64,000 nt of DNA, from positions 1,860,001 through 1,924,000 of the forward strand of contig NC_017075.1 of assembly GCF_000284255.1 (NCBI RefSeq), written 5' to 3'. The stretch is from Rubrivivax gelatinosus IL144 (GTDB lineage: Bacteria > Pseudomonadota > Gammaproteobacteria > Burkholderiales > Burkholderiaceae_C). Position 1 is the stretch's first letter, and each line of letters begins with the position of its first letter. The notes beneath the pieces are model-generated. The model saw only the letters and a program-made list of their open reading frames with translations. It was not told where the DNA came from and did not search any database. This document shows, in pieces, positions 1 to 16,645 of this stretch. A program made the position numbers and the translations under genes.

Positions 1-2781
1 GAGCACTTGGCGGCAAATCGGGCGGTAGCGCTTGAAGCCGAAGGGGTGAAGAGAACTGAGCTGGCGCGCGCCGCGTCAGCCGCCGCGAGTGAGTCGGCCA
101 CTGCGAAGGCTGAGTTCGATGAGGCACACCTCCAGGCGCGACGCTTCGAGACGGGTAGGGCGGCCGATTGGGAGAAGCTCGTAGAGGAACTCCCGAGCCT
201 GAAGGCTCGCGTCCAGACGCTCGAGTCCCAAGTTGGCGCGGCAGAGGCTGTGCAATCCGAGGCGACCGCCAAGTACGCAAGGCTGCAGGAAGAGGCCAAG
301 ACCCGAACCAGCGAGCAGTGCCTTGCTCTGGAGCGCACCAAGGGTCCCCACCGCGAGCGATTGGCGGAAGCGCTCCGTCAGATTGCCGCCGCAGAGACGG
401 GTGCTCTGACGCTATGCGACGAGGTGGCTGTCGCCCGACGGCAAGAGCTGGACGACCAGATGGAGCCCCTGCAGGGGCAGCGCGGCACCTGGGAGACGCG
501 TCAGTCCAACCCCGCGGCCTCTGACGAAGCGCTTCGGGAGGTGCAGGAGGCTGAGACCCGGCTTGAGCGGCATCTGGGAGATGTCAATCAGGTCCAGCAG
601 GTGGCTGGCACAGCCCAGACCGAGCTTCAGGCAGCAAGTCACGCGTTCGAGCGCCAAGAGGCAGAGCTGCGCAAAGCGCGCTCTGACTTGGCTTCGGCCA
701 AAGCCCAGCATGCCGAAGCACTGGCGAGGCTCAACCCTCCAGAAGGGACGTTCCTGGCAGCCCTTCGGGCGCATCCAAGTGACGACTGGAAGCGCAATCT
801 CGCGAAGGTTGTCAACCCGGAGCTTCTCAGCCGAGATGACCTGGACGTCGCCGCGGTCGAAGATGCGGCGAACACTCTCTACGGCTGGAGGCTCAACACG
901 GGCGTTATCGGTGCGCCGGACTGGGCTGATGATGCGCTGGCGCGCCAGTCAGTCGAGACCGCCAGGGCAAGGGTGACCACGGCAGAAGCCAGGGTGGCGG
1001 AGCAAGAGGCTGAGCTTGCCAAGCGTGGCCGCAACCGTGACGACGCGACACTCAAGGTGCAGACGTCGCAGGCCCGGCTGGCCGTGCTTAAGAACCAGAC
1101 GGAAGAGCGCCGAAGTCAGCGCGACGCTGCCCGTCAGCGAGTCGATACGGAGAAGCGGAACGCCCGCGAGAGGGCTGCGGCCGAGCTGGCGAAGGTGCGG
1201 ACCGCCATTGACGAGTTCAAGAAGCAACTCAAGACGCTCGGCGTCGAACACGCCACCTCTCGCGCTGCCGTCAGGGCAGCACATGACAAACAGCGCGTCG
1301 ACGCCCAGCGGCTGTGCGACGAGGCCGTGGCCGCCATCGACGCCCAAGCGGCTCGACTCCAGCAAGAGCTTGAGGCGACGCTTCGCAGCCTCGCGGAGCA
1401 GCTGAACGAGCACCTCAACAGAGCGGGTGTTGATGTTCAGCGCCTCGACGGGCTGCGAACCGAGGTGAAGGGGCTGCGCAAGGGCATCCGCGAGCGGGAA
1501 GACAACCAGGCACTGGTGGAAGCCTGGAGGGTTTGGCTCAAAGCGGGCGGCGCAACGCGCGTTGAGACCCTTAAGGCGGCAGCAGCCAGGTCAGCTGAAG
1601 CTTCCCGGGTAGCGGCCGCAAAGGTCACCGAGTTCGAGCAAGCAGCCGAGAAGTTGGGCCGTGAGTACAACGCTACCGTGGCCTTGCATGAGCGTCGGCT
1701 GGGCGACGTCGCTGACGAAATCAAGGTCCTGCAGGAGATGGATGAGTCGTTCGGCGACTACCTGGCAAGCGGAACTTCCGTCATCGACCCGAACACCTCG
1801 GCTCGCGACCTGCGGTCTAAGGTGCGCACCGTCCGTACGGAAATTGACAAGCTCGAAGAGGCCATCAATCGACGGACCTCGACTCTGCGGCAGACCTTGA
1901 CCGCCAAGAACAGCCTGGTCAAGGAGTTGGTCGACACCAGCCTGGAACAGGCCAGCGGGGACGGCATCATCAGTCGCGCGACGGCGCTCTCCATTTGCTA
2001 CCGGCAGGTCGGGCCCCAGGTTGCGAACGACGTCAACCTCACCTTGCGCACGCTGCTGGCGAACATCGGTGCGTTCCAGAAAGCCATTCAGGCTTTCGAG
2101 CGTGAGGTGTCAGCTTTCAACCGTCGCCTGCAAGAGGGGCTCACCGAGGTCAAGTGCTTCGAGCGGGTCAAGGACCTGCGCCTGGACATCGTCACCAACT
2201 TTGAGGGCCTGGGGTTCTACAAGAAGCTCTCGCGCATGGAAGAAGTCGTTCGCCTGCACGCAAGCGAGGTCGGCAAGGACTACACGCGCGAACTCCCGCC
2301 GGACGAAACCGCCCGTGCTTTGGGTGACTTCATGAGTGTTATCGGCGCGGACGGCAACGTCGAGGTGAACCTCTCTCAGCACATCACGCTGAAGGGGAGC
2401 GTTTCCGACAACGGGCAGCACAAGGAGTTCAAGCGCGCCAGTGAGTTGGAGAACATTTCTTCGGAGGGCTTGACGTCGCTCGTCCTCATCACGCTGATGA
2501 CAGCTCTTCTCAACACGATCCGCGGGACGGAGCCGGTGCATGTGCCTTGGGTCACCGATGAAGTCGGCAAGTTCGACCCCAAGAACTTCCGCGCGCTGAT
2601 GCAGATGCTGCGGGACAACCGCATTGACGTGGTTACGGCCTCGCCGGAGCTCGGGCCGGCGCAACAAGCCATGTTTGCGCAGCGGTACCTGTTCGAGGAC
2701 CGAGGTCGGATTCGTGAGTACAGGCCTCTGGAGGCTCTCGTCGCTGCCGCAGCGACTGCTGCAGAGGAGGTCCAGCCATGA
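1..2781 (+). CDS. SMC-like ATPase, JetC/MksB-type (5' end outside window)
   Basis: The open frame runs in from the left edge, so the N-terminal ATPase part with Walker A is not visible. The 926 visible residues are almost all charged, Ala/Glu/Arg-rich coiled coil. They end in an ABC-type head half: a degenerate signature region (ISSEGLTSLVLITL) followed by a Walker B-like VPWVTDE. This is the layout of the SMC subunits of MukBEF, MksBEFG and Wadjet (JetC). The gene overlaps the next one by ATGA, which implies translational coupling, and the next three products fit KITE, kleisin and Toprim partners. The likely role is a DNA-loop-extruding motor of a plasmid or phage defence complex. DUF3584-type SMC-like proteins are an alternative family label. 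Confidence 0.8.
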   Translation, partial: EHLAANRAVALEAEGVKRTELARAASAAASESATAKAEFDEAHLQARRFETGRAADWEKLVEELPSLKARVQTLESQVGAAEAVQSEATAKYARLQEEAKTRTSEQCLALERTKGPHRERLAEALRQIAAAETGALTLCDEVAVARRQELDDQMEPLQGQRGTWETRQSNPAASDEALREVQEAETRLERHLGDVNQVQQVAGTAQTELQAASHAFERQEAELRKARSDLASAKAQHAEALARLNPPEGTFLAALRAHPSDDWKRNLAKVVNPELLSRDDLDVAAVEDAANTLYGWRLNTGVIGAPDWADDALARQSVETARARVTTAEARVAEQEAELAKRGRNRDDATLKVQTSQARLAVLKNQTEERRSQRDAARQRVDTEKRNARERAAAELAKVRTAIDEFKKQLKTLGVEHATSRAAVRAAHDKQRVDAQRLCDEAVAAIDAQAARLQQELEATLRSLAEQLNEHLNRAGVDVQRLDGLRTEVKGLRKGIREREDNQALVEAWRVWLKAGGATRVETLKAAAARSAEASRVAAAKVTEFEQAAEKLGREYNATVALHERRLGDVADEIKVLQEMDESFGDYLASGTSVIDPNTSARDLRSKVRTVRTEIDKLEEAINRRTSTLRQTLTAKNSLVKELVDTSLEQASGDGIISRATALSICYRQVGPQVANDVNLTLRTLLANIGAFQKAIQAFEREVSAFNRRLQEGLTEVKCFERVKDLRLDIVTNFEGLGFYKKLSRMEEVVRLHASEVGKDYTRELPPDETARALGDFMSVIGADGNVEVNLSQHITLKGSVSDNGQHKEFKRASELENISSEGLTSLVLITLMTALLNTIRGTEPVHVPWVTDEVGKFDPKNFRALMQMLRDNRIDVVTASPELGPAQQAMFAQRYLFEDRGRIREYRPLEALVAAAATAAEEVQP

Positions 2782-3443
2782 ACTCACGTGTCCTGAAGCT
2801 GTTGCTCGCCGGCGAGTACATCTGCTCGGTTCGCTATCGCGATGAGTTCAGCCTTCTTGATGACGATGACGAACAAGAGGCCGTGAACACCTGGCTCGAG
2901 AGCCTGAACATGAGACTCGCCAGGCTCGGGGAAGACGGTGCATTTTTTATGGCACCGGCGTACATCGGGGTGAAGGAAATCACCCAGGTCAAGAACGAGC
3001 TGCTCAAGTTCCGTGACGAGTATGGGCCGGCCGTCCTGCTGCTTGACTTCATTCGGCAAACCGATGCGGGTAGCGTCTTCCTGAGTCCCGGCGAGTACAT
3101 CGCGCTGTACCAGCTTGACGCCGCGGTGTCGCAATCGACGATGATGGAGACCCAACTCAAGAGCCTCCTGAGCGTCATCAGCAACGCCTCGCAGCGAAAC
3201 ACCAATCACGAGAACCTGCGGCGACTCTTGGACCAGTTGGTCAAGGACGGGTACGCCATCCTGGTCAACAAGGACTCGGGCACCTACCAGGTCACTGGCA
3301 AGATTGAGCAGCTGTACGCAGTACTTCAGTTCTTGGACGAGAACAAGGTCATCCCCGACACCGAGGTCGATGACCGCGAAGCGGACGAGGCGGGCGAGGA
3401 CCTCGTCGACGCTGCCCAGGCAGACGAGGGGACGGCAACGTGA
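2778..3443 (+). CDS. JetB/MksE-like (KITE-type) subunit
   Basis: This 221-residue protein has the size, opening motif (LKLLLAGEYICS) and alpha/beta winged-helix feel of MksE/JetB subunits, which bind the kleisin in bacterial SMC complexes. The C-terminal 30 residues are strongly acidic (many Asp and Glu). It starts with an ATG inside the ATGA overlap with the SMC gene and ends in a GTGA overlap with the next gene. Such coupling is expected for subunits made in fixed ratio. The assignment rests mainly on position next to the SMC gene and on general fold features, because KITE proteins are poorly conserved. Confidence 0.6.
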   Translation: MNSRVLKLLLAGEYICSVRYRDEFSLLDDDDEQEAVNTWLESLNMRLARLGEDGAFFMAPAYIGVKEITQVKNELLKFRDEYGPAVLLLDFIRQTDAGSVFLSPGEYIALYQLDAAVSQSTMMETQLKSLLSVISNASQRNTNHENLRRLLDQLVKDGYAILVNKDSGTYQVTGKIEQLYAVLQFLDENKVIPDTEVDDREADEAGEDLVDAAQADEGTAT

Positions 3444-4675
3444 GCGAGCGTGGCGACCAGGTTCAGAAGCTGCTGGCAAGCCTTGCCAAGCACGCGGACC
3501 TCATCGCCGAGGCATTCGACGGAGCCGTCTCCGGCGGGGACAAGCAGCGGAACGCCGGGATTGAAGCGCTGTTCGGGCTGGGCGTCCTCAAGCCTTACGA
3601 CGAGGACAGCTACCGGCTGAATCCTCGCCTGCGCGAGTTCTTCGCTGACTACTTCTCAAGCTACCACGCCTTCCAGGCGCTGCGCAGAGTGTCAGGCACG
3701 ATGCAGCAAGCGCAGGAGCAATGGCGAGAACTGCGTCGGCTCAAGAGGCTCGGTGCTTCGAAAGACGTCGCCCGCCTCTACGCGGCCTTCGATGAGTCCA
3801 TCGTGGAGATGGCGTACTCCATCGAGCACAACCTCGCCATGCTGCACTCGCTGCTGTCGACCCAGTACGGCAACGTCGATGACCTGAGCTCGAAGCTGCG
3901 GCAGAACCGCTACTACTCCAAGCAGGTCACGCAGTTCCTTCGCGACGTCAAGGGCATCGACGCGTTTGTGGAGCAAATCGCTGAAGAAGCCGTTGCTTCA
4001 GGGATGACCGATGTCAGGCACTTGGTCACCCGACGGCTCGGGGCACGATGCCTGAACTGGACCTCGCAAATCAAAGACGCGCAGGCCGTCATCAGCAAGC
4101 GGCTGTTCGAGGCCAAACTGATGGAGGACCGCCTAAAGCGGCTGTCGCGCTTCGCGCTATGGCTGACGCGCCACAAGACGGCTGACGGCTGGGACCTCGC
4201 CGTTGAGAACAGCGCCAGCGAAGCTCTCTTCAGGCCGGAGTGCATCGAGCTTCGACCGCAGCCAGACGTCGCAGACACCGACCCCTCTGCCTGGGACAAC
4301 CTCCTCGTTGCGGTTTCCAAACTTCCGCCCAAGAAGGCCCCGCCTGCGCCGAAGGCTGAGGAGGGTCCACAGCTCCTGCTCGAGGACGAAGCCAACGAGG
4401 TGGTGGAGGTCGTTGACCCAGCGCGAAAGGCGCTGCGGGAGCTTGTGGCCCACGCATCCCAGTTGGACGCGCCAATCTCGTTGCTGCATTGGAAGCGAGC
4501 GAGGCCTGAGCTGGCCGATGTGAGCGACGAAGCGTGGCTGATGTTCTCCTGCTTGCAGCTCAAGGGCGGCGGGATGCGGCTGAGCTTCGTCGAGCAGCCT
4601 GTGCTTGACCCGTTCCCCGTCAACGAGGCGTTCTACGACGTCGAGGTTCGAAGACCGTTGCATGAGGCTGCCTGA
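3440..4675 (+). CDS. JetA/MksF-like kleisin-type subunit
   Basis: This is a 411-residue protein. An N-terminal winged-helix-like part (about 1-75, ending RLNPRLREFFADYFSSYHAF) is followed by a long helical middle (80-240). A Pro/Ala/Lys-rich linker near 295-310 leads to a further C-terminal domain. This matches the MukF/MksF/JetA plan of an N-terminal winged helix, helical bundle and linker that bridges the SMC heads. The start is a GTG within the overlap with the KITE-like gene. The stop overlaps the next ATG as TGATG. The family call is by architecture and context. Confidence 0.6.
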   Translation: MSERGDQVQKLLASLAKHADLIAEAFDGAVSGGDKQRNAGIEALFGLGVLKPYDEDSYRLNPRLREFFADYFSSYHAFQALRRVSGTMQQAQEQWRELRRLKRLGASKDVARLYAAFDESIVEMAYSIEHNLAMLHSLLSTQYGNVDDLSSKLRQNRYYSKQVTQFLRDVKGIDAFVEQIAEEAVASGMTDVRHLVTRRLGARCLNWTSQIKDAQAVISKRLFEAKLMEDRLKRLSRFALWLTRHKTADGWDLAVENSASEALFRPECIELRPQPDVADTDPSAWDNLLVAVSKLPPKKAPPAPKAEEGPQLLLEDEANEVVEVVDPARKALRELVAHASQLDAPISLLHWKRARPELADVSDEAWLMFSCLQLKGGGMRLSFVEQPVLDPFPVNEAFYDVEVRRPLHEAA

Positions 4676-5520
4676 TGACGTTCACATCGCAGCAGATTCA
4701 GTTCCTCCAGCGCCTAGTCAGCGAGCGACCCAGTCAGCGGCGCGTGGGTGACGTGTCGCGGCACTTGAGCGAGCACTACAGCCTTGGAACGATGGTCGGA
4801 CGCCAAGTGGAGTACCGCGACGAACACTTGCGGATGGCTGAAGCGCTCCTTCGAACCCACGACCTTCCGGTGAGTCCGATGGCTCCCTCCGCGACCCGTG
4901 CCGATGTGGCGGCGTTCGGGGGGGTGTCCGAGAAGGCGCTGAGCGCTGCACCCCACGCCGGGTCCATCGGCGTGAAGTGCGTTGGCTCGTGCACGCTGGA
5001 CGGATTACCACTCCGCACGCCGGATGGCACATACCTGGTCGTGACTCCGGAAGTCGCGCGCCGCATCAGGTGTGACCGACTCATGCTGGTGGAGAACCTA
5101 GAGACGTTTCGACAGCTCGAGCGATACGGCTGGATTGACTACCTCGGGTGTTCGGTGCTTGTCATCTATCGAGGGGACTCCGTGCTGTCTACCGGTGAGG
5201 CTCTCCAACTGCTGCGGGTCAGGCGGGAGCCCGTCTGGGCGTTTGTCGATTTCGACCCGGCGGGTCTGGTCATCGCGAACGCGTTGCCAACGGAACGCCT
5301 TGAAAGAATCGTTCTTCCCGAGCAGGCGTGGCTTCGCAAGGCAGCGAACACCTCTCGCGGTCGCCAACTGTTCGAGGAGCAAGAGGCTAAAGCACGTCCA
5401 GGCCTAGAGCGCGCTGTTCATCCGGAAGTACGTAGGGCTTGGGCTGAATTGACCGAGCTGCGCAGTGGCGTGACCCAGGAGCGGATGCTGTCCATTCGGG
5501 GGGAGGCGAAGACCGAATGA
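4675..5520 (+). CDS. Toprim-domain protein, JetD/MksG-like nuclease
   Basis: This is a 281-residue protein with clear Toprim motifs: Glu140 in LMLVENLETF, then Asp192 and Asp194 in AFVDFDPAGL. The same motif pair occurs in JetD/MksG, the DNA-cleaving subunit of Wadjet-type SMC systems, where Toprim acidic residues bind Mg2+. The N-terminal 60 residues look like a small DNA-binding helical region. It is short for a JetD, which is usually nearer 400 residues and carries an arm domain. Start ATG overlaps the kleisin-like stop. It is the last of the four SMC-complex genes. Confidence 0.7.
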   Translation: MTFTSQQIQFLQRLVSERPSQRRVGDVSRHLSEHYSLGTMVGRQVEYRDEHLRMAEALLRTHDLPVSPMAPSATRADVAAFGGVSEKALSAAPHAGSIGVKCVGSCTLDGLPLRTPDGTYLVVTPEVARRIRCDRLMLVENLETFRQLERYGWIDYLGCSVLVIYRGDSVLSTGEALQLLRVRREPVWAFVDFDPAGLVIANALPTERLERIVLPEQAWLRKAANTSRGRQLFEEQEAKARPGLERAVHPEVRRAWAELTELRSGVTQERMLSIRGEAKTE

Positions 5521-5595
5521 GCGCTGGCTGCTAACTGGCGGCGCTATTCTGTGCGTACTGCCCCGGCAGAGGAGCGACCAAGGGAGGCTGAGACT

Positions 5596-8001
5596 GTGGG
5601 TAAGAAGAAGAGCTCTAACACGAGCAGCGGTGTTGTCATCCTGTTGATTGGCGCAGTGGCGCTGATTGCAGCCATTCCCAAAGAGGTCTGGATTGGTGCG
5701 GCCTTGCTCGCTGGGGTCGGCATCGCCGTCTACCTCTACTCCAAGTCAAAGAGCTATCGGTCGCCTGCAGTCGATGAACGTCCCTCTGCGCTCGAGTCGC
5801 GCCCCGCGACCAGGCCTGAAGTGGCGCCCCAGAGGGTCGCCGCGCATACGATTGCTCGCTTCAGTGAGGTTGACGAGCCCGTCAGCACCGGCGCAGGGCA
5901 AGGCCGGGTCTCTGCCTTCCGCATCCCGGCAGCTCCCAAGGGGTTCGGTCAAGCATCCTGGGTTCCTCCTGGGCAGTCCGTTGACGTCGGTGGTGTGACC
6001 ATCCCGGGTGGAATGGTCTACGTCGGCACAAAGCTGCAGACGCCTGCTGGTGCCAACGACCCCTGTCTCATCGACCCGTCGAAGTCGGTCGCTCGGCAGG
6101 GCGACTACACCGAGCGGCAAATGGGTTACTGGCCCAGCTACTCGGAGATTTCCGGTGGGGCACGCCGGGCCTACCTGAACTGGTTGGCAGGCGGGCGCAA
6201 GGGCCCAGAAGCGGACATCGGCTACGTCTTCCTGTTCTTCTACGGCCTGGAGCGCCGTGCCATCATCGACGCGACGAAGGACGAGGCCGCTCGTGCGGAC
6301 TGGCCCGCAATCGCCGCTGAGCTCCGCCGCCTTCTCGGCATCTACGGTGACAAGTCTGGGTCGTTTCGCGGCTACGCAGCAGCATTGCTCGACTGGGTCG
6401 CCCTTGCAGAGCACCCGGTGCGCCTCTACGAGAAGCCCGTCCTCTCTTTCCCCAAGACCTACGAGCTTCCACTTTACGTACGGCTGGCGTTAGGTCAGGC
6501 CGCAGTGGACGGCGCGCCAGTTCCTGTTCACCTCGCACTTGCCTGGGCTCGACTCGAGCCGAACATCTATCTTCGGACGCCGGCCACTCGGTGCGCGGCT
6601 GAGTTTGAACAGCTCTTCGCCGCCAAGTACGCTGAGGCCTTCGGCGCCGGCATGGTCATGCCGCGCAATCGCACCAAGCTCAAGCTCGTCTACCGACCGG
6701 CCTCTGCAGGCTTCCGCGGGTACGACGAGTTCAAGCTCACGTTCCGCGAGACGCCTGACGTGACAGTGCTGACCGCTCCCGTGAAGAAGCTTCAGGAGGT
6801 GGTCGAAGCAGCAACGAAGCCGTTGGAGCCATTCAGTCGGCTGGTCGGCAAGAGTCCCGAAGCCAAGGACTCCCTCGAGGCGTTGCTGCAACTACCAGCG
6901 CCACTCTGGCCTGACAGGGCCAAGAAGACGCTACAGGACCTCAAGACGAGCATGGGCGACGGCATGGTTGCGATGCCATTCCAGGACTTGCTGAGCTCTC
7001 TTGGGGCCAAGACGGCGTTCACCAAGGACAAGACCATCTCGCTTGCCCGAACGCTCGAATCCGCGAACGTGGGCCTCGAGCCCGATGTACTTGCTGGGGC
7101 CAAGGCGCCGAAGCCTGAAGATAAGGTTGTTCTGTTTGCTCTGCCACCGGCTGAGCCGCAGTCTCGCGTGAATGGGCCGTATCTCGCGGCTGCGCTGACG
7201 TTGCAGCTAGCCTCAGCTGTGGCCTCGGCCGACGGCGATTTCGGCACCAAGGAGATGAGCCACCTGCGCGAGACTGTGCTGTCGTGGAACCACCTCACAC
7301 CCAGCCAAACGCGCCGTCTCCTGGCGCACTTGCGGCTGTTGATGCAGGCTCCGGCATCGTTGACCTCCCTGAAGAAGAAGCTCGAGCCGCTTAACTTGTC
7401 CATCAAGGAGACGATTGCCGCGTTCATGGCAACGGTCGCGCAGTCAGACGGCGTTGTGGCCCCGGCCGAAGTCAAGATGCTGGAGAAGGCCTACAAGGCC
7501 CTCGGTGTGGACGCGAAGAAGGTGTTCTCCGATGTTCACGCGGTCGCAGCTGGCGTGACACCGACCGCCGCAACGGTAGCCAAGGTCGAAGAGTCGGGCT
7601 TCAAGCTCGACCCGACTCGGGTCGCTGCGCTCCAGAGGGATACCGAAAAGGTGTCGGCGTTGCTCGCCAACATCTTCACCGAGGCACAGGAGCGCGGGGA
7701 GGAGACAGCGGCTGAATCCGTGGAGGAGGAACCGGGCACCGAGCCGACGGAGTCGACTGAGGTGGCTAAGGGCCTCCTTGGTCTGGATGAAGCTCACTCG
7801 GCGCTCGCCCGGATGATGCTGTCACGCCCGCAATGGAGTCGGGAAGAGCTGCTTGACGTTGCGGCGGACCTCGACTTGATGCTCGACGGGGCGCTCGAAC
7901 ACATCAACGACGCCGCGTTCGATACACACGACATGGCCCTGTTCGAGGGCGACGACCCCGTGACGGTGAACGCTGAGATTGTGGAGAAGGTGGAAGCATG
8001 A
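5596..8001 (+). CDS. Membrane-anchored TerB_N-TerB-TerB_C protein
   Basis: The GTG at 5596 is chosen over the GTG at 5551. An excellent AGGGAGG lies 8 bases upstream, and the protein then opens with a Lys-rich stub and two hydrophobic segments (about 12-30 and 33-50), so the product is probably held at the inner membrane. Then follow a TerB_N-like region (about 150-380, with GYWPSYSEISGGARRAYLNWLAGGR), a TerB-like acidic helical domain with two Asp-Gly turns (SADGD, QSDGV; about 525-640), and a TerB_C-like end (about 690-800). TerB domains bind metal ions. TerB_N/TerB_C proteins are known to occur with DNA-processing genes rather than only in tellurite resistance. It overlaps the next gene by ATGA. 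Confidence 0.8.
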   Translation: MGKKKSSNTSSGVVILLIGAVALIAAIPKEVWIGAALLAGVGIAVYLYSKSKSYRSPAVDERPSALESRPATRPEVAPQRVAAHTIARFSEVDEPVSTGAGQGRVSAFRIPAAPKGFGQASWVPPGQSVDVGGVTIPGGMVYVGTKLQTPAGANDPCLIDPSKSVARQGDYTERQMGYWPSYSEISGGARRAYLNWLAGGRKGPEADIGYVFLFFYGLERRAIIDATKDEAARADWPAIAAELRRLLGIYGDKSGSFRGYAAALLDWVALAEHPVRLYEKPVLSFPKTYELPLYVRLALGQAAVDGAPVPVHLALAWARLEPNIYLRTPATRCAAEFEQLFAAKYAEAFGAGMVMPRNRTKLKLVYRPASAGFRGYDEFKLTFRETPDVTVLTAPVKKLQEVVEAATKPLEPFSRLVGKSPEAKDSLEALLQLPAPLWPDRAKKTLQDLKTSMGDGMVAMPFQDLLSSLGAKTAFTKDKTISLARTLESANVGLEPDVLAGAKAPKPEDKVVLFALPPAEPQSRVNGPYLAAALTLQLASAVASADGDFGTKEMSHLRETVLSWNHLTPSQTRRLLAHLRLLMQAPASLTSLKKKLEPLNLSIKETIAAFMATVAQSDGVVAPAEVKMLEKAYKALGVDAKKVFSDVHAVAAGVTPTAATVAKVEESGFKLDPTRVAALQRDTEKVSALLANIFTEAQERGEETAAESVEEEPGTEPTESTEVAKGLLGLDEAHSALARMMLSRPQWSREELLDVAADLDLMLDGALEHINDAAFDTHDMALFEGDDPVTVNAEIVEKVEA

Positions 8002-9302
8002 CGACGACGATTCGCCCCAAAGACCGCGACGCTGTCATCCAGTCGCTGCGCGCCGGTGTCGTGCCCCGCATGGGGCAGCACCTAGTACAGGTAGGCCGCA
8101 CCCGGGAAATCGAGACGCTTGTCAGCGACATTGAACGCATCGCCGACGGTGGGTCGGCCTTCCGAGTCGTCATCGGCGAGTACGGTGCCGGCAAGACGTT
8201 CTTCCTCAACCTCGTGCGAGCGGTGGGGATGGAGAAGAAGCTTGTCGTCGCGAGTGCTGACCTCAATCCGGACCGGCGGCTGCATGCCAGCGGAGGCCAA
8301 GCCCGTTCGCTGTACGCAGAGCTGATGCGCAACCTCTCGACGCGCACGAAGCCAGATGGCGGCGCCTTGAGCGGCATCGTCGAGAAGTTCATCGCCACGG
8401 CCAAGTCCGAGGCGAAGGGCTCCGGCCAGACCACTGAGGCCGTGCTGCGCCAAAAGCTGGACCAACTGACCGAACTGGTGAACGGCTACGACTTCGCCGA
8501 CGTCATCGCGGCGTACTGCCGCGGCTTCGAGGAGGGCAACGAGCAGCTGAAGTCGGATGCAGTCCGCTGGCTGCGCGGTGAGTTCTCGACCAAAACAGAC
8601 GCCAGGCAGGCGCTGGGCGTGCGGACCATCGTCGACGACGCAGCCGTGTACGACCAGTTGAAGCTGATGGCGCGATTTATCCGCCTTGCCGGGTTCTCCG
8701 GGCTCCTCGTGAGCCTGGACGAGCTTGTGAACCTCTACAAGCTCGCAAACACGCAGGCACGCAACTCCAACTACGAGCAGATTCTCCGCATCCTGAACGA
8801 CTCTCTGCAGGGAACCACAGTGGGTCTGGGCTTCGTGCTCGGCGGAACGCCAGAGTTCTTGCTCGACACTCGACGGGGCCTCTACAGCTACCCGGCGCTC
8901 CAGAGTCGACTCGCGCAGAACACATTCGCAACCAACGGCCTGGTGGACTTCAGCGGGCCGGTGGTGCGACTTTCGAGTCTCACGCCGGAGGACTTCTATG
9001 TCCTCTTGCAGAAGATTCGCGGGGTGTATGCCTTCGGTGACCCCACCAAGCACCTGTTGCCCGACAACGGGGTGATGAGCTTCATGGAGCACTGCTCCAA
9101 GCGCGTCGGCGACGCCTACTTCCGCACGCCGCGTACGACCATCACTGCCTTCATCAATCTGCTGGCGGTGCTGGAGCAGAACCCTGGTGCAGCCTGGCAA
9201 GACTTGCTTGGCGGCATTGATGTCGCTGCCGATACGGGCGGCGCTGGCGACCAGGCGGTTGAGGCAGAAGACGGCGACGAGTTCAGCTCGTTCAAGATGT
9301 GA
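7998..9302 (+). CDS. BrxD-like P-loop ATPase (DUF2791 family)
   Basis: This 434-residue ATPase has Walker A at 60-67 (GEYGAGKT) and a Walker B-like LLVSLDEL. It also has the strongly conserved family segments RAGVVPRMGQHLVQVGR and GGQARSLYAEL. It closely resembles BrxD, the ATPase of type 2 BREX, but no pglX, pglZ or other BREX core gene is present here. BrxD-like ATPases typically pair with an Lhr-like helicase, as in the next gene. The ATGA overlap with the TerB gene argues that the two products work together. Confidence 0.85.
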   Translation: MTTTIRPKDRDAVIQSLRAGVVPRMGQHLVQVGRTREIETLVSDIERIADGGSAFRVVIGEYGAGKTFFLNLVRAVGMEKKLVVASADLNPDRRLHASGGQARSLYAELMRNLSTRTKPDGGALSGIVEKFIATAKSEAKGSGQTTEAVLRQKLDQLTELVNGYDFADVIAAYCRGFEEGNEQLKSDAVRWLRGEFSTKTDARQALGVRTIVDDAAVYDQLKLMARFIRLAGFSGLLVSLDELVNLYKLANTQARNSNYEQILRILNDSLQGTTVGLGFVLGGTPEFLLDTRRGLYSYPALQSRLAQNTFATNGLVDFSGPVVRLSSLTPEDFYVLLQKIRGVYAFGDPTKHLLPDNGVMSFMEHCSKRVGDAYFRTPRTTITAFINLLAVLEQNPGAAWQDLLGGIDVAADTGGAGDQAVEAEDGDEFSSFKM

Positions 9303-9325
9303 GCCTGGATCGAAGGAAGCGGTAG

Positions 9326-11533
9326 GTGTCCGACTCCAGTTCTTTCCACCTCCTCGATGAGCGCATCCAGCGCTTTATCTGGGCGGAGGGCTGGGAGTCG
9401 CTCCGGGAGGCCCAAGAGGCTGCCATCCCCCTGATCGTCAAGGCTGACCGAGACGTCATCGTGGCCGCTGCCACCGCAGCAGGTAAGACAGAAGCGGCGT
9501 TCCTTCCCGCCTTGACGCATTTGATGGCGTTGGAGCCGCCGGGCCTCATCGTCTACATCAGCCCGCTGAAGGCTCTCATCAACGACCAATTTGGTCGCCT
9601 GGACCGACTCTGCGAGCAGTTGGAAGTGTCGGTTTGGCCGTGGCACGGCGACATCTCTTCATCCGTGAAGACGCGGTTCTTGGCCAAGCGGCAAGGGGTC
9701 TTGCTCATCACCCCGGAGTCACTCGAGGCGCTTCTGTGCAACCGCGGCACGACGATTCGCGCAGCCTTCGAGCGACTGACCTTCTTCGTGGTCGATGAGC
9801 TTCACGCTTTCATTGGCGCAGAACGTGGCAAGCAACTGCAGTCGCTGATGCATCGCATCGAACGTGTCCTTGGTCGAACCGTACCTCGCATCGGGCTTTC
9901 TGCCACCCTCGGCGACATGAGCCTTGCTGCCGGGTTCCTGCGGCCTGGCCGTGGGGCGGCGGTGGCGATGGTGGAGTCGAAGTCCGCCGGAAGCGAGCTC
10001 AAGATTCTGGTCAAGGGCTACGAGGAACCCTTGGTTGTTTGCCCAGAAGAGGGCGAGGACCCACCGGAGCCGACGACACCGGCTCAGATTGCTGCGCATG
10101 TCTTCAAGGGCTTGAGAGGCTCGAACAACTTGGTGTTCCCCAACTCCAGGCGCGAGGTGGAGAGGTACACGCACTTGCTCAATAAGCTCTGCACGGCGCA
10201 GCAGGTACCGAACGAGTTCTGGCCCCACCACGGTAGCTTGTCCAAGGAAATTCGCTCGGAGACCGAGTCCGCGCTCAAGCAGAAGGAACGCCCCGCTACC
10301 GCCATATGCACGAACACGCTCGAGCTGGGCATCGACATCGGGGCGGTCAAGAGCGTCGCGCAGATTGGCCCGCCTCCCTCGGTGGCAAGCCTTCGTCAGC
10401 GCCTTGGCCGCTCGGGACGAAGGAAGGGCGACCCTGCAATTCTGCGTGGCTACTGCATCGAGGACGCGCTGGGCGGAAAGTCGTCTATCGCTGACGACCT
10501 TCGACTTGGAACAGTGCAGATGGTGGCGATGATTTCGCTGCTGCTGGAGGGGTGGTTCGAGCCACCGCGGTCGCATGGAGCACACCTCTCGACGTTGATT
10601 CAGCAGGTGCTGTCGTTCATCGCTCAGAACGGCGGAGCCACCATCGGTCAGCTCTATAGCTTGCTGTGCGCCCCGGCCACGCCATTCGCGGGGGTCTCAA
10701 AGGACGAGTTCATTGAGCTCGTCCGTCACCTCGGGCAGAAGGAACTGCTGATGCAGGACTCTGCGGGCACGCTTCTTCACGGGCGCGTGGGTGAGAAGCT
10801 AGTCAACCACTACACCTTCTACGCAGCGTTCGCGACAGACGAAGAGTTCCGCATCGTGGCTGGCGGCAAGACACTGGGTACTCTGCCGGTGTCGCAGGCG
10901 CTCGTCATCGGTCAACGCATCCTGTTTGCGGGCAAGACTTGGCGAGTCGAGGACATCGACGAGGACCAGAAGGTCATATTTGTTGCCCGAGCTGGCGGGG
11001 GCGCTCCGCCGCTGTTCTCTGGTGGGGCGGGGAGGACCCACACGCAGGTGCGGCAACGGATGCGCCAGCTGTTGGAGTCAGCGGAGGTGCCGCCCTACTT
11101 GGACGAAGTCGCGAATCGGTTCTTGGTCGAGGGCCGAGCTTGCTACGCAAGTCGCGGGCTCGGGCAGGCGTACTGGGTGGACCAAGGTTCGGAGCTGCTC
11201 TTGTTGACTTGGCTCGGAGATTCCGCAAACGAAGCGTTGGCTTGTTTGCTGCAGCGTCGCGGCTTCATCGCTACTCCTGGCGGCCCAGGAGTGCAGGTCC
11301 TGAAAGGCAGAAGTACCACCGAGGCCGTCGTAAGCGTCTTGTTCGACGCTGCCGTTGACGAAGCGCCGCCATTGGACATGCTGCTGGCCAAGACAAAGAA
11401 CCTACAGCGTGAGAAGTGGGATTGGGCATTGCCGGACCCCTTGCTGCGAAAGGCATACGCGAGCCTGTACCTAAACATGGGCGAGGCGCTTGCCTGGCTT
11501 CGAGCGCTTCCGAATCGAACTTGCGATGACTGA
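9326..11533 (+). CDS. Lhr-like superfamily 2 DEAD/DEAH-box helicase
   Basis: The GTG start at 9326 follows a GAAGGAAG ribosome site. The 735-residue product has a Q-like motif near 29 (LREAQEAAIP), Walker A ATAAGKTE at 49-56, motif II VVDELH, motif III GLSATLGD, and motif VI QRLGRSGR. The helicase core is followed by an Lhr-type winged-helix and accessory region. Similar helicases accompany BrxD-type ATPases in BREX type 2 and other defence loci. It lies 23 bases after the ATPase gene and is the probable DNA or RNA-DNA translocase of the TerB module. Confidence 0.85.
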   Translation: MSDSSSFHLLDERIQRFIWAEGWESLREAQEAAIPLIVKADRDVIVAAATAAGKTEAAFLPALTHLMALEPPGLIVYISPLKALINDQFGRLDRLCEQLEVSVWPWHGDISSSVKTRFLAKRQGVLLITPESLEALLCNRGTTIRAAFERLTFFVVDELHAFIGAERGKQLQSLMHRIERVLGRTVPRIGLSATLGDMSLAAGFLRPGRGAAVAMVESKSAGSELKILVKGYEEPLVVCPEEGEDPPEPTTPAQIAAHVFKGLRGSNNLVFPNSRREVERYTHLLNKLCTAQQVPNEFWPHHGSLSKEIRSETESALKQKERPATAICTNTLELGIDIGAVKSVAQIGPPPSVASLRQRLGRSGRRKGDPAILRGYCIEDALGGKSSIADDLRLGTVQMVAMISLLLEGWFEPPRSHGAHLSTLIQQVLSFIAQNGGATIGQLYSLLCAPATPFAGVSKDEFIELVRHLGQKELLMQDSAGTLLHGRVGEKLVNHYTFYAAFATDEEFRIVAGGKTLGTLPVSQALVIGQRILFAGKTWRVEDIDEDQKVIFVARAGGGAPPLFSGGAGRTHTQVRQRMRQLLESAEVPPYLDEVANRFLVEGRACYASRGLGQAYWVDQGSELLLLTWLGDSANEALACLLQRRGFIATPGGPGVQVLKGRSTTEAVVSVLFDAAVDEAPPLDMLLAKTKNLQREKWDWALPDPLLRKAYASLYLNMGEALAWLRALPNRTCDD

Positions 11534-11589
11534 CGGTTCAGCAGACCCTACGTGGATGTCGCGGCGAAACCCGATTAGCAGGGGTTCCT

Positions 11590-13533
11590 TTGCCAGCAAG
11601 ATGGTCTGCTGAGGAACGGCGGCGATGGCAGGAAGTGCTCGACCAGGTTGCGAGGCAACCGGCGAGCGATAGCCTGCCGGATGGGCCCGTCGTATCGGCC
11701 CAAGGAGCTGGGACGTCAGAGAAGGCGGCGGCGAGCGAGCTGGCTGCGCCCTCCGCCGTGCCAGCGGAATGTGAGGACACCGTCCGGCTGGACGAGTTCG
11801 ACCGGCTGTTCGGCGCCAAGGCGCCCCAGGTCGAACTCACGCATTCGGTGCCGGACGCGCCGGTGCACGTGGAACAAATTGCTGCTCGCACTTCGGCACA
11901 AGAGTTCAGTTTGCCGAAGCCGCCTGCGCCAGAGCGTCCCCGATGGTATGGCCCCACCCACACTGTTGAGGTGCGCGGTCTCGTCCTGCCAGGACTACTG
12001 AGCGTCGCGCTGAAGCCTCCGCCCAAGGGCGTAGTGCTGCACCCCGCAACCGTCGCGGCGTGGATGCCTGCAGACCTCGGTGTGCCAACAGACGGCGTTG
12101 AACCTATCCGGGATGTCTGGTCCATCCCCAGCTACGCTTCGCTGACCGTCGCCCAGCGAGGCTTGTATCTGAAGTGGCTCGCCTCCGGTAGGGAGCTTTC
12201 CGTGCCGGCGCATCTGGCACTTCTCTTTGTTTGCGGGCTCGAGTCTAGGGTCGTCGAGGCAGGCCCGACCGCCCTCGCGGACGAGGAGCGCCGGGCGATT
12301 GCATGGGCCTCTCGGGACGTTGTCGCTCGGTTTGGGAGTGCGTTGCCGCAGCTTCGCGAACACTGCCTTAACCTGGCGGGCTTCTTGGATGCGGTTGACG
12401 CGCCAGCCCGCTGGTACTTGCTCGATGTCCCAGAACTCGCAGAGACCTATGACCCTTCGGCCCCTTTGCAAGTGGCCCTTGGGCAAGCGGCCCGTGACGG
12501 CGCGTTCCTTCCCCCCGCTTGGGCGCTTGCATCCGTGCTGAGTGACGTGCGTGTGCCAAAGAAGACGCCCGTTGGCCGCTGCCCCGAGGAGATGCGCGAA
12601 CTGTTCTGTATCCACTTTCAGTCAGCTTTTCCAAAGGGACTGAAGGTGGAGCGCAGGCCGTTCAATGCGCTCAAGGTCGTCTACCGGGGTACGCCTGACC
12701 GACGTACGGGTGCGCCGGCAAGCACTTCGGTTGTTGTCCCGTCCGCTGACCAGACTTGGTTCACACAGGACCAGGTTCAGGCTATCAGAGAGGCATTTGA
12801 CCGATGCGCTGATGAGTTGTCGGCGTACAGTAGATTCATCGGCCGCATGCCTATCGCAAAGGGTACTCCCGATGCCGAAGTGCGCCTGCCGCTAAGCCTC
12901 CTTCGGCGGCGGCTTGCCGCCAACTTCGAGGTGCTGAGTGCAAGTCTCGGTCGACGCAAAGAAGTGTCATTGGACCAAGCTTGGATGGCTCTGTGGGGGA
13001 AGCTGCCCGAGCGCAAGGACAGTACGTCTTTCTTGCGCGCACTGCTTGAGGCGGAGGGGTTAACTGTCGTCGCGACGTTGCCGGTGTCTACCCAAAGGGC
13101 GGGCGTCCCATCCCCTCCAGGGCGGCCGTTCCGGCTAGACCCAGAGAGGCTCGAGAGGGTCCGCAAAGACGAGGCTGCTGCTACCAAGCTGCTCTCGGCT
13201 CTCTTCACCGACACAGCGGAACAGGCCACGCCTGCATCGCCGGCGACCGTGCATGTCGACCCGGACCGGGCGTTGTTTCCGCAGCTCGATGACGACCACT
13301 TCCGGCTCTTGATAAGCCTACTCAATGCAGACGCCTGGACTCGGGAGCGACTGAAACAAGCGGCCAGCCAGCTCGGCCTGATGTTGGATGGTGCGCTGGA
13401 GGTCATAAACGATGCCGCGTTCGAGCTGACTGGCGGGCCTCTGGTGGTTGACAACGGTGACTTGGGGGTGGATTCGGCGACTGCTCGCCAGATCGGTGGA
13501 GCGCTGGTGTCGTTTCGGCAGGCGCTCCGTTGA
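11590..13533 (+). CDS. Second TerB_N/TerB_C protein, lacking central TerB
   Basis: The 647-residue product resembles the protein encoded at 5596-8001 at both ends. A TerB_N-like region contains YASLTVAQRGLYLKWLASGR near 182-201. A TerB_C-like tail contains LGLMLDGALEVINDAAFEL. There is no membrane segment and no recognisable central TerB domain. No ATG or GTG is available near the expected N-terminus, so the start is taken as TTG at 11590, with a GCAGGGG about 5 bases upstream; a start slightly further in is possible. A likely reading is a soluble partner of the membrane-anchored TerB protein. Confidence 0.7.
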   Translation: MPARWSAEERRRWQEVLDQVARQPASDSLPDGPVVSAQGAGTSEKAAASELAAPSAVPAECEDTVRLDEFDRLFGAKAPQVELTHSVPDAPVHVEQIAARTSAQEFSLPKPPAPERPRWYGPTHTVEVRGLVLPGLLSVALKPPPKGVVLHPATVAAWMPADLGVPTDGVEPIRDVWSIPSYASLTVAQRGLYLKWLASGRELSVPAHLALLFVCGLESRVVEAGPTALADEERRAIAWASRDVVARFGSALPQLREHCLNLAGFLDAVDAPARWYLLDVPELAETYDPSAPLQVALGQAARDGAFLPPAWALASVLSDVRVPKKTPVGRCPEEMRELFCIHFQSAFPKGLKVERRPFNALKVVYRGTPDRRTGAPASTSVVVPSADQTWFTQDQVQAIREAFDRCADELSAYSRFIGRMPIAKGTPDAEVRLPLSLLRRRLAANFEVLSASLGRRKEVSLDQAWMALWGKLPERKDSTSFLRALLEAEGLTVVATLPVSTQRAGVPSPPGRPFRLDPERLERVRKDEAAATKLLSALFTDTAEQATPASPATVHVDPDRALFPQLDDDHFRLLISLLNADAWTRERLKQAASQLGLMLDGALEVINDAAFELTGGPLVVDNGDLGVDSATARQIGGALVSFRQALR

Positions 13534-13696
13534 AGTCAAATCTGTTGAGGGGCGCTGAAGCCCCCCTCGAAGGTTCAGCTTTGCCCCTGCAGGTGGAGAA
13601 GCTGTCGTCCAAGGCGTTGAGATGAGGGGCAAGTTGCCCAAGTGGGCGCCTTCTTCCCAGTGCCCGGTCTGGACTCCTCACGGCTGATGGTAAAAA

Positions 13697-13717
13697 CGTG
13701 TTGCAATTTGCAATACG
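13697..13717. promoter_or_regulatory. 21-bp palindrome, candidate operator
   Basis: The arms are CGTGTTGCAA and TTGCAATACG around a central T. Each arm contains the self-complementary hexamer TTGCAA, and only one base pair outside the centre mismatches. It lies 12 bases before the ATG of a ribbon-helix-helix-like gene and upstream of zorA. The position fits autoregulation of that small gene and of the zor operon. Function is inferred from symmetry and position only. Confidence 0.55.
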
Positions 13718-13729
13718 GGTCCTTGACGC

Positions 13730-13943
13730 ATGAACGCTGAGAAATCGGTCGGACTGACCTTCCGGGTGACACCGAAGACCAAGCGGCTCCTCGTCGCAGC
13801 GGCTGAGTACGAAAAACGCACCTTGACCAACATTGTTCGAGGTGCTTGTGGCGGAGTTCTGCCAGCGCGCGGGGATAGTGGAAGCTGAGGCGAGGAACGC
13901 CCCGAAGAGGGCCGCAAGTTCAGGGAAGAAAGTGCATGAGTGA
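13730..13943 (+). pseudogene. Frameshifted ribbon-helix-helix-like regulator
   Basis: From ATG 13730 the frame reads MNAEKSVGLTFRVTPKTKR and then a helical stretch typical of short RHH/Arc-like proteins, but it stops after 52 residues at 13888. Shifting frame by one base at ATTGTTCGAG (about 13830-13838) restores a plausible helix (FEVLVAEFCQRAGIVEAEAR). It ends in a basic tail whose stop overlaps the zorA start by 8 bases, giving about 70 residues. One extra T explains the break. The near-perfect palindrome just upstream would suit an RHH repressor. It could be a real mutation or a sequencing error; no slippery heptamer is seen that would suggest programmed shifting. Confidence 0.6.
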
Positions 13944-15939
13944 AACTGCGAAGCTGCTAGGCGGCATCCACCCGTCTCTGCAGACCCTTCATGGGCTGCC
14001 GCTGTGGGTCTTCCTGTTGGTCGTCCTGCTGACCAGTATTTTCCTTCTGGGTTACTTGCTCAAGGGAACGCAGGTCTGGTGGCAACTGAGGTCAACTGTC
14101 CGCGCGGTGCGGTCCTTTGGGGGGCAGAAGGCGCCGCCAGACCCGAAGGCGGTTGGTCGGGCCTTCCAGTCGGAGCCCCTGAAGCACCTATGGGAAGAGT
14201 ACGACGACACCTTGCATGAGCTGCGCAAAGCAGCCTCTGGAGAGGTTGCCCTCGTCGAGGTCCGGGCAACTGTGCCAGCCGAGGCGATGTTCACGAGGGA
14301 TGTACTCGTGGACAGCCGGCTCTTCGACGACTTCACCCGTCACCTGCCTGGCGTTCTCACTGGCCTAGGCATTATCGGTACCTTTGCAGGGCTGCTCGCT
14401 GGCCTGCAGGACTTCAAGCCATTTCCTATTGAGGAGGCGGTCAAGGGGCTGGGGCCGCTGCTGCTCGGGGTTCAACATGCTTTCGTTGCCTCGGGCGTGG
14501 CCATCGGCTGCGCCATGGTTGTCGTGTTCGTCAGCCGATTCACACTGGCGTACCTGTATGGGCTCGTCGAGCAGCTAACGCATGGCATCGACAGCCTCTA
14601 CTCCACCGGCGCCGGTGAGGAGTACTTGGCCCGGCTCGTCAGGTCCTCGGAGCAAAACGCAGCCAGTACCGCACAGCTCAAGGACGCGCTTGTGGAAGAC
14701 CTCCACAAGATGATGACCAACCTGGTTGACCGGCAGATTGCCGCTCAGGAGGCCTCAACGCTAGCGCTGGGCAAGCACATCGGCGAAGCCATCTCGACCG
14801 CTGTCGCAGGACCCATGGAGCGAATGGGCAACGCCATGGAGGCGACCGCCCGCGGAAACGGAGAGCAGGTCAACTCGATGCTTGAGACCTTGCTCACCGG
14901 TTTCATGGCCAAGTTGGAAGACACCTTCGGCGGGCAGATGAGGGGCATCAACGAGCAGATGCAGCGCTCCATGGACTCGATGGCGGCCGTGCAAGCCTCG
15001 CTGCAAGGGTTGCTCGCAGACATCAAGCAGACCAACGAGCATGCGGCAACACAGATGTCCGGCACTCTCGAGGAGGCCATGAAAAGGGCAGCGGACAACC
15101 AGCAGCTGCTGACTGACCAGATGCGGGAGTTCGTTCAGGACTTCCGGCGCCTTGTGACCGAGGAGCAGAACAAGTCCAAGGCCGCCATGGACGAGGCCGT
15201 GATGAAGGTGTTAAGAGAAGTCGCCGTCGCGATTGAGGGCCTGGAAGGTGCTCGCAAGGCATCAGCTGCCGAGGAGGCGGGGCGCAACGACCGCTTGGCC
15301 TCGCAAACCAATCAGCTGGTTGGGGGGCTCACCGCTCAGGTCGAGGCGCTTCTGGGTGCCGTCTCCGACCAAGTAGCCAAGACTCAGCGCAACATTGACG
15401 CACTGTCGCAAGTCTCCCTCAGCGCTATCGACGGCATGAACCACGGAGCGCTGACGATGAGCAGTGCTGCTCAGCGATTTGAGACCGCGGGCAGCGCGGT
15501 TTCGACGGTCTTCGAGCGCTCCACGAAGGTTGCCGACACGCTTGCCTCCGCGTCAGCTGCACTCCAGGCGGCATCCACGGCGGTCCAGCGCGGGTTCGAA
15601 CAGTACGACTCGACCAGGCGAACCGTGGACTCTCAAGTCGCGGTACTGACTGGCCTGATTGAAGCGGCCAAGAAGGAAGCTGGCGTTTCCCAAGAGTTGG
15701 TCGCGAGCATCAAGGCAAGCGCTGATTCCATGCGCGCGGCCGAAGCACAGAGCCGGGAGCACCTTGCGGGCGTCAATGCGGCACTGCTGAAGGCTTTTGA
15801 GGACTTCGGGATTCAGCTGGTAAGTCGCATCAAGGACGCCATCGCTGAGACGGACCGCCATCTAGCCCAGGGCACGGGGCACCTGAACGGAGTTGTGCAG
15901 GAACTCGCCAATGCGGTTCAGCGCATGAAGAGGGCCTGA
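13936..15939 (+). CDS. zorA: ZorA, Zorya defence motor channel subunit
   Basis: ZorA and ZorB form a proton- or ion-driven inner-membrane motor related to MotA/MotB and ExbB/ExbD that senses phage entry. This 667-residue protein has a hydrophobic segment at about 21-42, a second at about 137-157 (LPGVLTGLGIIGTFAGLLAGL) and a third near 181-205. A very long helical tail (about 225-667) matches the cytoplasmic ZorA tail. AGGGAAG precedes the ATG. It sits directly before zorB. Confidence 0.93.
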   Translation: MSETAKLLGGIHPSLQTLHGLPLWVFLLVVLLTSIFLLGYLLKGTQVWWQLRSTVRAVRSFGGQKAPPDPKAVGRAFQSEPLKHLWEEYDDTLHELRKAASGEVALVEVRATVPAEAMFTRDVLVDSRLFDDFTRHLPGVLTGLGIIGTFAGLLAGLQDFKPFPIEEAVKGLGPLLLGVQHAFVASGVAIGCAMVVVFVSRFTLAYLYGLVEQLTHGIDSLYSTGAGEEYLARLVRSSEQNAASTAQLKDALVEDLHKMMTNLVDRQIAAQEASTLALGKHIGEAISTAVAGPMERMGNAMEATARGNGEQVNSMLETLLTGFMAKLEDTFGGQMRGINEQMQRSMDSMAAVQASLQGLLADIKQTNEHAATQMSGTLEEAMKRAADNQQLLTDQMREFVQDFRRLVTEEQNKSKAAMDEAVMKVLREVAVAIEGLEGARKASAAEEAGRNDRLASQTNQLVGGLTAQVEALLGAVSDQVAKTQRNIDALSQVSLSAIDGMNHGALTMSSAAQRFETAGSAVSTVFERSTKVADTLASASAALQAASTAVQRGFEQYDSTRRTVDSQVAVLTGLIEAAKKEAGVSQELVASIKASADSMRAAEAQSREHLAGVNAALLKAFEDFGIQLVSRIKDAIAETDRHLAQGTGHLNGVVQELANAVQRMKRA

Positions 15940-15940
15940 G

Positions 15941-16645
15941 ATGCTGACCAGTATCGTCCTCAAGCGGCGCGGCAAGCCTGAGGGGGAAAGTCCGTTCTGG
16001 ATTTCATTCTCTGACCTGATGTCGGCCTTGATGGTGCTGTTTCTGGTCGTGATGGCGGTGACGCTGGTTGCGGTGACGCAGAGCATTGATGCGGCAACGC
16101 GCGCGTCCATCGAGCGTAGCCAGGCCATCAGCAAGCTGATGTCGCTTATTGCCGAGGACTCGAAGAAGAGTGGGGTCGGCGTAGACCAAAGCAACTTCCG
16201 CATCGACCTGGGCAAGGACGTCAGGTTCGATAGTGGCAGCTACACCATCACTCCTGCGGCGCGTCAGTTCCTGCGAAGCTACGTCCCGGTTCTGCTGAAG
16301 GCCAAGGACACACCAGAGGGGAAGCGCTGGCTGCGTAGCGTGGTCATCGAGGGGTTCACCGACGAGGACGGCACGTACCTCTACAACCTCCTGTTGAGCC
16401 TGGACCGTAGCAGAAGCGTCGTCTGTGCGTTGTTCGAGGGTGCCAGCGGGAGCGAGGGCCTACGTCGGGACCAGCTCCAGAAGGTGCAGGAGCTGTTCCT
16501 CGTAGGGGGCTACTCCTTCAACTCCATCAAGAAGGACAAGGCTGAGAGCAGGCGGGTGGAGTTCAAGGTGGACTTCTGGGGCCTCGAGGAGACTCCGGTG
16601 CCGCCCAGTGACGTTCTGAAGGACAAGGAGTTTGGGAAGTGCTAG
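15941..16645 (+). CDS. zorB: ZorB, OmpA-like motor stator subunit
   Basis: This 234-residue protein has one N-terminal membrane helix (FWISFSDLMSALMVLFLVVM). Asp25 in the FSDLM motif corresponds to the ion-carrying aspartate of MotB/ZorB proteins. The periplasmic part is an OmpA-like peptidoglycan-binding domain with the VIEGFTDEDGTYLYN and LSLDRSRSV motifs. It starts one base after the zorA stop, and its end overlaps the GTG start of zorC, as expected for co-translated subunits. Confidence 0.93.
   Translation: MLTSIVLKRRGKPEGESPFWISFSDLMSALMVLFLVVMAVTLVAVTQSIDAATRASIERSQAISKLMSLIAEDSKKSGVGVDQSNFRIDLGKDVRFDSGSYTITPAARQFLRSYVPVLLKAKDTPEGKRWLRSVVIEGFTDEDGTYLYNLLLSLDRSRSVVCALFEGASGSEGLRRDQLQKVQELFLVGGYSFNSIKKDKAESRRVEFKVDFWGLEETPVPPSDVLKDKEFGKC

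Follow-up and report, generated by a model that had tools for sequence, protein, structure and literature searches.

A Wadjet/Mks-like SMC-Toprim gene module directly upstream of Shango genes in Rubrivivax gelatinosus IL144

Eight packed genes and their surroundings

The window analysed here, 64,000 bases of Rubrivivax gelatinosus IL144 (G000:C1:1860001-1924000), is part of a single 5.04 Mb contig. L002 denotes a stretch of the same genome that includes the DNA upstream of the window, and the other L numbers denote loci read for comparison. Gene calling on the window confirmed eight tightly packed genes on the plus strand at positions 1-13533 (Table 1), as a previous reading of the sequence alone had described them. 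The window edge truncates the SMC gene, whose true start lies 924 bases further upstream (L002:16078-19782, 1234 aa). The junctions from SMC through KITE and kleisin to Toprim overlap by 4, 4 and 1 bases and that of SngA and SngB by 4 bases, while gaps of 23 and 56 bases separate SngB from SngC and SngC from gene 8. Between Toprim and SngA there are 30 bases, or 75 if the shorter SngA start is used, the database gene call (P0241) being 15 residues shorter than the protein starting at 5551.

Table 1. Genes of the Rubrivivax gelatinosus locus and its neighbourhood, with one protein of a related locus (positions without prefix are those of the window)
Feature	Position	Strand	Evidence
Tn7-type core-like genes (three), upstream of WYL	L002:8200-13358	same strand, all three	
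WYL-domain regulator, upstream of SMC	L002:15079-16038	divergent from SMC	WYL 4.4e-14
SMC ATPase (DUF3584), 3' part	1..2781	+	PF12128 3.6e-137 with full protein
KITE-like subunit, MksE family	2778..3443	+	PF21980 MksE 1.4e-7
Kleisin-like subunit, probably MukF/MksF type	3440..4675	+	weak fold match and position
Toprim nuclease (predicted), MksG/JetD-like	4675..5520	+	DUF7281 1.1e-21
SngA	5551..8001	+	PADLOC SngA 4.2e-109
SngB ATPase, BrxD-like	7998..9302	+	PADLOC SngB 2e-181, BrxD 2.6e-46
SngC helicase, Lhr/BrxHI-like	9326..11533	+	PADLOC SngC 2.3e-270; DEAD, Helicase_C
Gene 8, second TerB_N/TerB_C protein	11590..13533	+	TerB_N 1.9e-39, TerB_C 2.2e-18
ZorA (type I Zorya)	13936-15939	+	PADLOC ZorA1 1.6e-261
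ZorB (type I Zorya)	15941-16645	+	PADLOC ZorB1 8.8e-96
ZorC (type I Zorya)	16639-18336	+	PADLOC ZorC1 1.5e-276
ZorD (type I Zorya)	18294-22199	+	PADLOC ZorD1 0
GajB (Gabija)	33071-34780	minus	2.3e-231
GajA (Gabija)	34786-36603	minus	1.6e-260
1429-aa protein, two TerB_N and one TerB_C (Rubrivivax MAG52)	L077:10725-15014	beyond SngC, convergent with SngC	

Further defence genes lie close by. A type I Zorya system, which we did not count in the composite, starts 402 bases after gene 8, and a Gabija system follows on the other strand. Upstream of the WYL gene, the three Tn7-like genes encode a 912-aa protein (weak TnsA-like N-terminus at 1e-4, rve, Mu-transpos_C), a TnsC-like TniB/AAA protein and TniQ. 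A comparison of two flanks of this element gave no terminal repeat longer than 12 bases, and no tRNA was found in L002 or near the island.

The short gap between Toprim and SngA suggests that transcription from a WYL-controlled start before the SMC gene could reach Shango. A simple promoter scan of positions 1-14200 found no consensus promoter anywhere. A weak terminator-like stem lies between Toprim and SngA (5527-5542), in a scan that performed at chance level (10 found, 10.5 expected).

Identity of the two halves

The sequence-only reading had named the first four products as SMC, KITE, kleisin and Toprim. Domain or fold matches support three of these, while the kleisin was assigned from a weak fold match and its position. 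The SMC protein of the window carries a Walker A motif (GDNGVGKT), a signature motif (SSEG) and a Walker B motif (TDEVG). In a pattern search of ten relatives including the window, Walker A was present in all ten, a DEVG-type Walker B in nine and an SSEG-type signature in five. By sequence, the SMC protein had no match in the PDB. The KITE match to MksE (PF21980) reached 32.5 bits at a cut-off of 27. The kleisin-like protein matched neither Pfam nor, by sequence, the PDB; its three top PDB chains in Foldseek were all MukF (E 4e-3 to 2e-2, from a model with a pLDDT of only 67). On this structural likeness, the third gene product is probably a kleisin of the MukF/MksF type. In the Toprim protein the acidic residues E140 and D192-x-D194 are conserved, and its predicted fold is closest to MksG (8b7f) and JetD (7til); a sequence search of the PDB gave two weak hits that look unrelated (best 5.6e-4, mL100), and a profile search gave none.

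By analogy with Wadjet and MksBEFG, the first half together with the WYL gene forms a candidate module of this kind, which is predicted to block plasmids and to cut circular DNA. The four-gene order is kept in distant relatives such as L019, L055 and L060. A divergent WYL gene also accompanies three distant SMC operons (L065, L074 and L038, about 22-32% identity), so this regulator may have joined the SMC module long ago. The kleisin is patchily distributed, occurring in 2 of 399 genomes of the order, 11 of 399 of the family and 4 of 81 of the genus. Among plasmid records it was found in 6 and SngB in 694, and viral contigs yielded no confirmed relative of kleisin, SngB or Toprim.

Genes 5-8 had previously been taken for an unnamed mixture of Ter and BREX parts. 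This view has to be given up for genes 5-7, which by their PADLOC matches are the named anti-phage system Shango (SngABC), in the order SngA, SngB, SngC on one strand. Shango has been described as a three-gene system of a TerB protein, an ATPase and a helicase with modest anti-phage activity, lowering phage plating in Pseudomonas PA14 (PMC10250203). SngA contains TerB_N (3.1e-72), TerB_C (5.9e-38) and TerB (6e-10) domains, and a hydropathy peak near residues 21-64 marks a hydrophobic N-terminal stretch. SngB matches the Pfam domain BrxC_BrxD. Judged by its profile match, gene 8 is paralogous to SngA (PADLOC SngA 1.4e-35); the domain search did not detect the central TerB domain in it, and none of its 19-residue windows reached a hydropathy of 1.6.

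Recurrence, separation and exchange of the halves

The pair recurs in Rubrivivax MAG52 (L004/L077) in another arrangement. There, a WYL gene separates the SMC-KITE-kleisin-Toprim genes from SngABC, and WYL, SngA, SngB and SngC are on the strand opposite to the SMC module. The gene beyond SngC encodes a protein of 1429 aa that combines two TerB_N domains with a single TerB_C domain; a TIR-domain protein is encoded near it (L077:7966-9174). Searching 13 genomes for gene 8, we found a second TerB_N/TerB_C protein in two, that of the window and Rubrivivax MAG52 (G717); eight SMC-free genomes with SngA gave only SngA, and three gave no match. Such a second protein was present at 2/2 SMC-linked loci versus 0/15 other SngB loci (Fisher p 0.007; SngABC is complete at 11 of the 15), where the two linked loci come from one genus and do not count as two independent events.

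For a wider view we compared contig sizes, taking it as a proxy for co-location when the longest contig of a SngA homologue was exactly as long as that of a kleisin or Toprim homologue. Equal size is a strong sign of a shared contig when the contig is long and says nothing about order and orientation. The lists compared comprised 119 homologues of SngA, without the protein of the window itself, 120 of kleisin and 120 of Toprim, in each case the nearest ones. Exact matches were obtained for 11 of the 119 SngA homologues listed, compared with an average of 0.80 and a maximum of 6 in 2000 draws of jittered lengths. On contigs of at least 10 kb there were nine matches, with 0.12 expected (maximum 2). 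These metagenome contigs measure 1112133, 73934, 43481, 32613, 19343, 18019, 14151, 12948 and 11883 bases. Chance may account for the other two matches, on shorter contigs of 6131 and 7223 bases, a range in which about 0.7 are expected. For scale, the neighbouring genes kleisin and Toprim yield 45 exact matches among the homologues listed. Among the 15 Toprim rows of at least 76% identity on contigs of at least 10 kb, five match SngA and five match kleisin. We dropped the idea of a one-off abutment of unrelated systems, since SngA homologues lie on contigs equal in size to those of SMC-half homologues.

In the SngA tree, a clade of ten with 99% support unites the window, five of the 11 matched rows and others. 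Drawing at least five of nine from 11 of 119 has a probability of 0.0003, in a comparison whose partner lists are centred on the window and so favour window-like SngA. The labels are scattered over the tree, with ten changes for 12 labelled rows in a raw, unshuffled count, and the tree of SngB gives no resolved grouping of the window and L004. For the matched pairs, the identities of SngA and Toprim to those of the window correlate with a Spearman coefficient of 0.76 (p 0.018, nine pairs), or 0.67 (p 0.066) for the eight pairs on contigs of at least 10 kb.

Most often, the halves are found apart. This is the outcome that the sequence-only reading had named as refuting its composite, and it applies largely, though in view of the recurrence not wholly. 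Duplicate loci were merged (L010=L053, L004=L064=part of L077, L003=L071, L014=L043), and G525/L057 was dropped because of a weak profile match and the lack of a tblastn match at 1e-8. This left 24 other SMC loci (L003-L010, L018, L019, L038, L052, L054-L056, L058-L061, L065, L072-L075), among which contig ends truncate L054 and L056, only kleisin and Toprim remain in L018, and L073 is a remnant. Shango genes were near two of the 24, L004 and, as a remnant, L059. The latter, on a Variovorax plasmid, is a SngC remnant without SngA and SngB (L059:14626-16227, minus strand; 71% identical over residues 204-728) next to a distantly related SMC-KITE-kleisin-Toprim operon, which is on the opposite strand. 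Conversely, none of the 15 SngB loci read outside L004 (L033-L037, L039-L045, L015-L017) had an SMC module nearby. A kleisin-profile search of the genome collection returned eight loci, all with the same four-gene order and one, L004, with Shango in the stretch read. SngB was found in one of 13 kleisin-bearing genomes searched, again Rubrivivax MAG52 (G717). In the order sample (399 genomes) kleisin occurred in two and SngB in six genomes, in the family sample (299 genomes) in seven and eight, and in both samples the only shared genome was that of the window. If the two genes were independent, the probability of no further overlap in the family sample would be 0.87; the lack of overlap is thus expected by chance, and the samples show separateness rather than avoidance. 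By these neighbourhoods, each half is a discrete transferable unit that is usually found alone. In P. aeruginosa, Shango and Wadjet have been reported at different hotspots, with Wadjet rare in the Shango-holding one (PMC10250203), which speaks against a general link between SMC and Shango.

The place behind the Toprim gene can be filled differently. Among the relatives that could be read, the one closest to the SMC half is L003 from a Burkholderiaceae MAG. Its DNA is 89.0% identical to the window along an alignment of 7435 columns that begins shortly beyond the WYL gene and stops 31 bases short of the Toprim gene's end; no other stretch matched in the 47 kb compared. Starting 22 bases behind its Toprim gene, L003 carries three genes on the same strand (L003:12095-18128): one without a Pfam match, one with PLDc_2 and a helicase. 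Their matches to ZacA (1.2e-4), ZacB (4.9e-15) and ZacC (2.6e-19) make "Azaca-like" a loose name, because that to ZacA is weak and the helicase fits PDC-M27C better (5.1e-35); by their sequences, the three are possibly a distinct system. In L005, a 2204-aa Hhe/PDC-S37-like gene stands some 600 bases further on behind the SMC module, and L007 has metabolic genes in the corresponding place. On a SngA-matched contig of 1,112,133 bases, the Toprim shares 94.6% identity with its L003 counterpart, indicating that partners change between very close modules.

Interpretation and likeness to named systems

We consider it likely that two known kinds of defence machine have repeatedly been joined behind one control region, where they most likely act side by side. 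Wadjet and Mks complexes have been reported to extrude loops on small circular DNA, which is then cleaved by the Toprim subunit (PMC12287153, PMC10123090). By analogy, the SMC-KITE-kleisin complex would entrap DNA and extrude loops until it stalls on a small circle, which the Toprim subunit would then cut. SngABC, as judged from the phenotypes of Shango, would block phages by means of its ATPase and helicase, here with a TerB protein held in the membrane. Read-through under WYL control may switch on the anti-plasmid and the anti-phage system together. Within one set of beta-proteobacterial lineages the two have probably come together, or stayed together, more than once, and systems other than Shango can also occupy the position after the Toprim gene.

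Next in our ranking comes a plain defence island: the two halves would then be neighbours by chance in a crowded hotspot next to Tn7-like genes, and their adjacency would mean nothing for regulation or function. We regard this as possible, yet clearly less probable than side-by-side action. Zorya directly behind the eight genes, Gabija nearby, TnsAB-, TnsC- and TniQ-like genes upstream, and the presence of other systems in that slot (L003) or further back (L005) all fit such an island. The same-strand spacing of 30-75 bases argues against it, as do the closely related SngA proteins on contigs matching those of SMC-half homologues and the WYL side shared with L004, a recurrence that exceeds one random juxtaposition.

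The sequence-only reading had taken the packing to imply one machine; this is possible, but we rank it third and think it unlikely. Here, the SMC extruder would find or spool foreign DNA, and SngABC and the extra TerB protein would anchor and process the same DNA at the membrane, with the parts in physical contact. The recurrence of the pair, which we see in Rubrivivax MAG52 and, by size matches, on about ten further contigs, is consistent with such a machine. So are the rough co-variation of SngA and Toprim identities over the matched pairs, and the second TerB_N/TerB_C protein, which is encoded next to Shango at both of the SMC-linked loci that were read and is absent genome-wide from the eight Shango-bearing, SMC-free genomes searched. 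Yet many genomes carry one half without the other (2/24 SMC loci and 0/15 SngB loci have the other half near), both SMC-linked loci belong to one genus, and L003 has another system in the slot despite the near identity of its Toprim to a SngA-matched one. That in one lineage SMC-Toprim, Shango and the second TerB_N/TerB_C protein form a co-inherited machine, widening an anti-plasmid device to phages, seems similarly doubtful. Far less probable than any of these is that the SMC half is a chromosome-maintenance complex of the MukBEF/MksBEF kind and not a defence system: its nearest named relatives are indeed MksE and MukF, but its patchy distribution, its presence on plasmids (six records), the MksG/JetD-like Toprim subunit and the neighbouring defence genes all speak against such a role.

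The pair, an anti-plasmid-type SMC complex and anti-phage Shango in one gene row, may represent a partnership that merits testing. Should a lineage of Shango be tied to a plasmid-cutting SMC-Toprim complex, the pairing would offer a tangible way into the question of what Shango senses. Moreover, the different systems behind the Toprim of near-identical modules may serve as a natural experiment in the shared control of defence systems. This SMC family (DUF3584, MksE-like KITE, DUF7281 Toprim, in the order B-E-F-G) has probably been missed in surveys, because neither the defence models nor the NCBI models applied here recognised it. The titles and abstracts searched describe no SMC-Shango unit, and the earlier statement that no named system unites all the parts holds as far as this literature goes.

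Compared with MksBEFG and Wadjet (JetABCD), the window likewise has an SMC protein, an MksE-type KITE and an MksG/JetD-like Toprim, together with a probable, weakly matched MukF-like kleisin. It differs in the order SMC-KITE-kleisin-Toprim (B-E-F-G) instead of mksFEBG, which is given as the conserved order in PMC10123090, and in the length of the Toprim, 281 aa, where the solved chains of MksG and JetD have 368 and 374 residues. None of the Jet models of PADLOC and NCBIfam matched at E 0.01, in a scan run without a known Wadjet as positive control. Lamassu was rejected: the SMC protein has 1234 aa, matches LmuB only at 4.9e-6 and has the Walker B glutamate, and no LmuA is among the scanned genes. 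BREX type 2 is a distant likeness, through SngB and BrxD (2.6e-46) and SngC and BrxHI (3.1e-114); both proteins match the Shango models much better, and a scan of genes at 1-22199 gave no match to PglX, PglZ or PglW. The Azaca-like set of L003 occupies the same slot behind the Toprim of the same SMC family, with genes unrelated to Shango. Closest to the second half is Shango itself, whose TerB-domain protein, BrxD-like ATPase and DEAD/Lhr-like helicase stand in the same order here; the window differs from it by the SMC module directly upstream and by the second TerB_N/TerB_C protein behind SngC.
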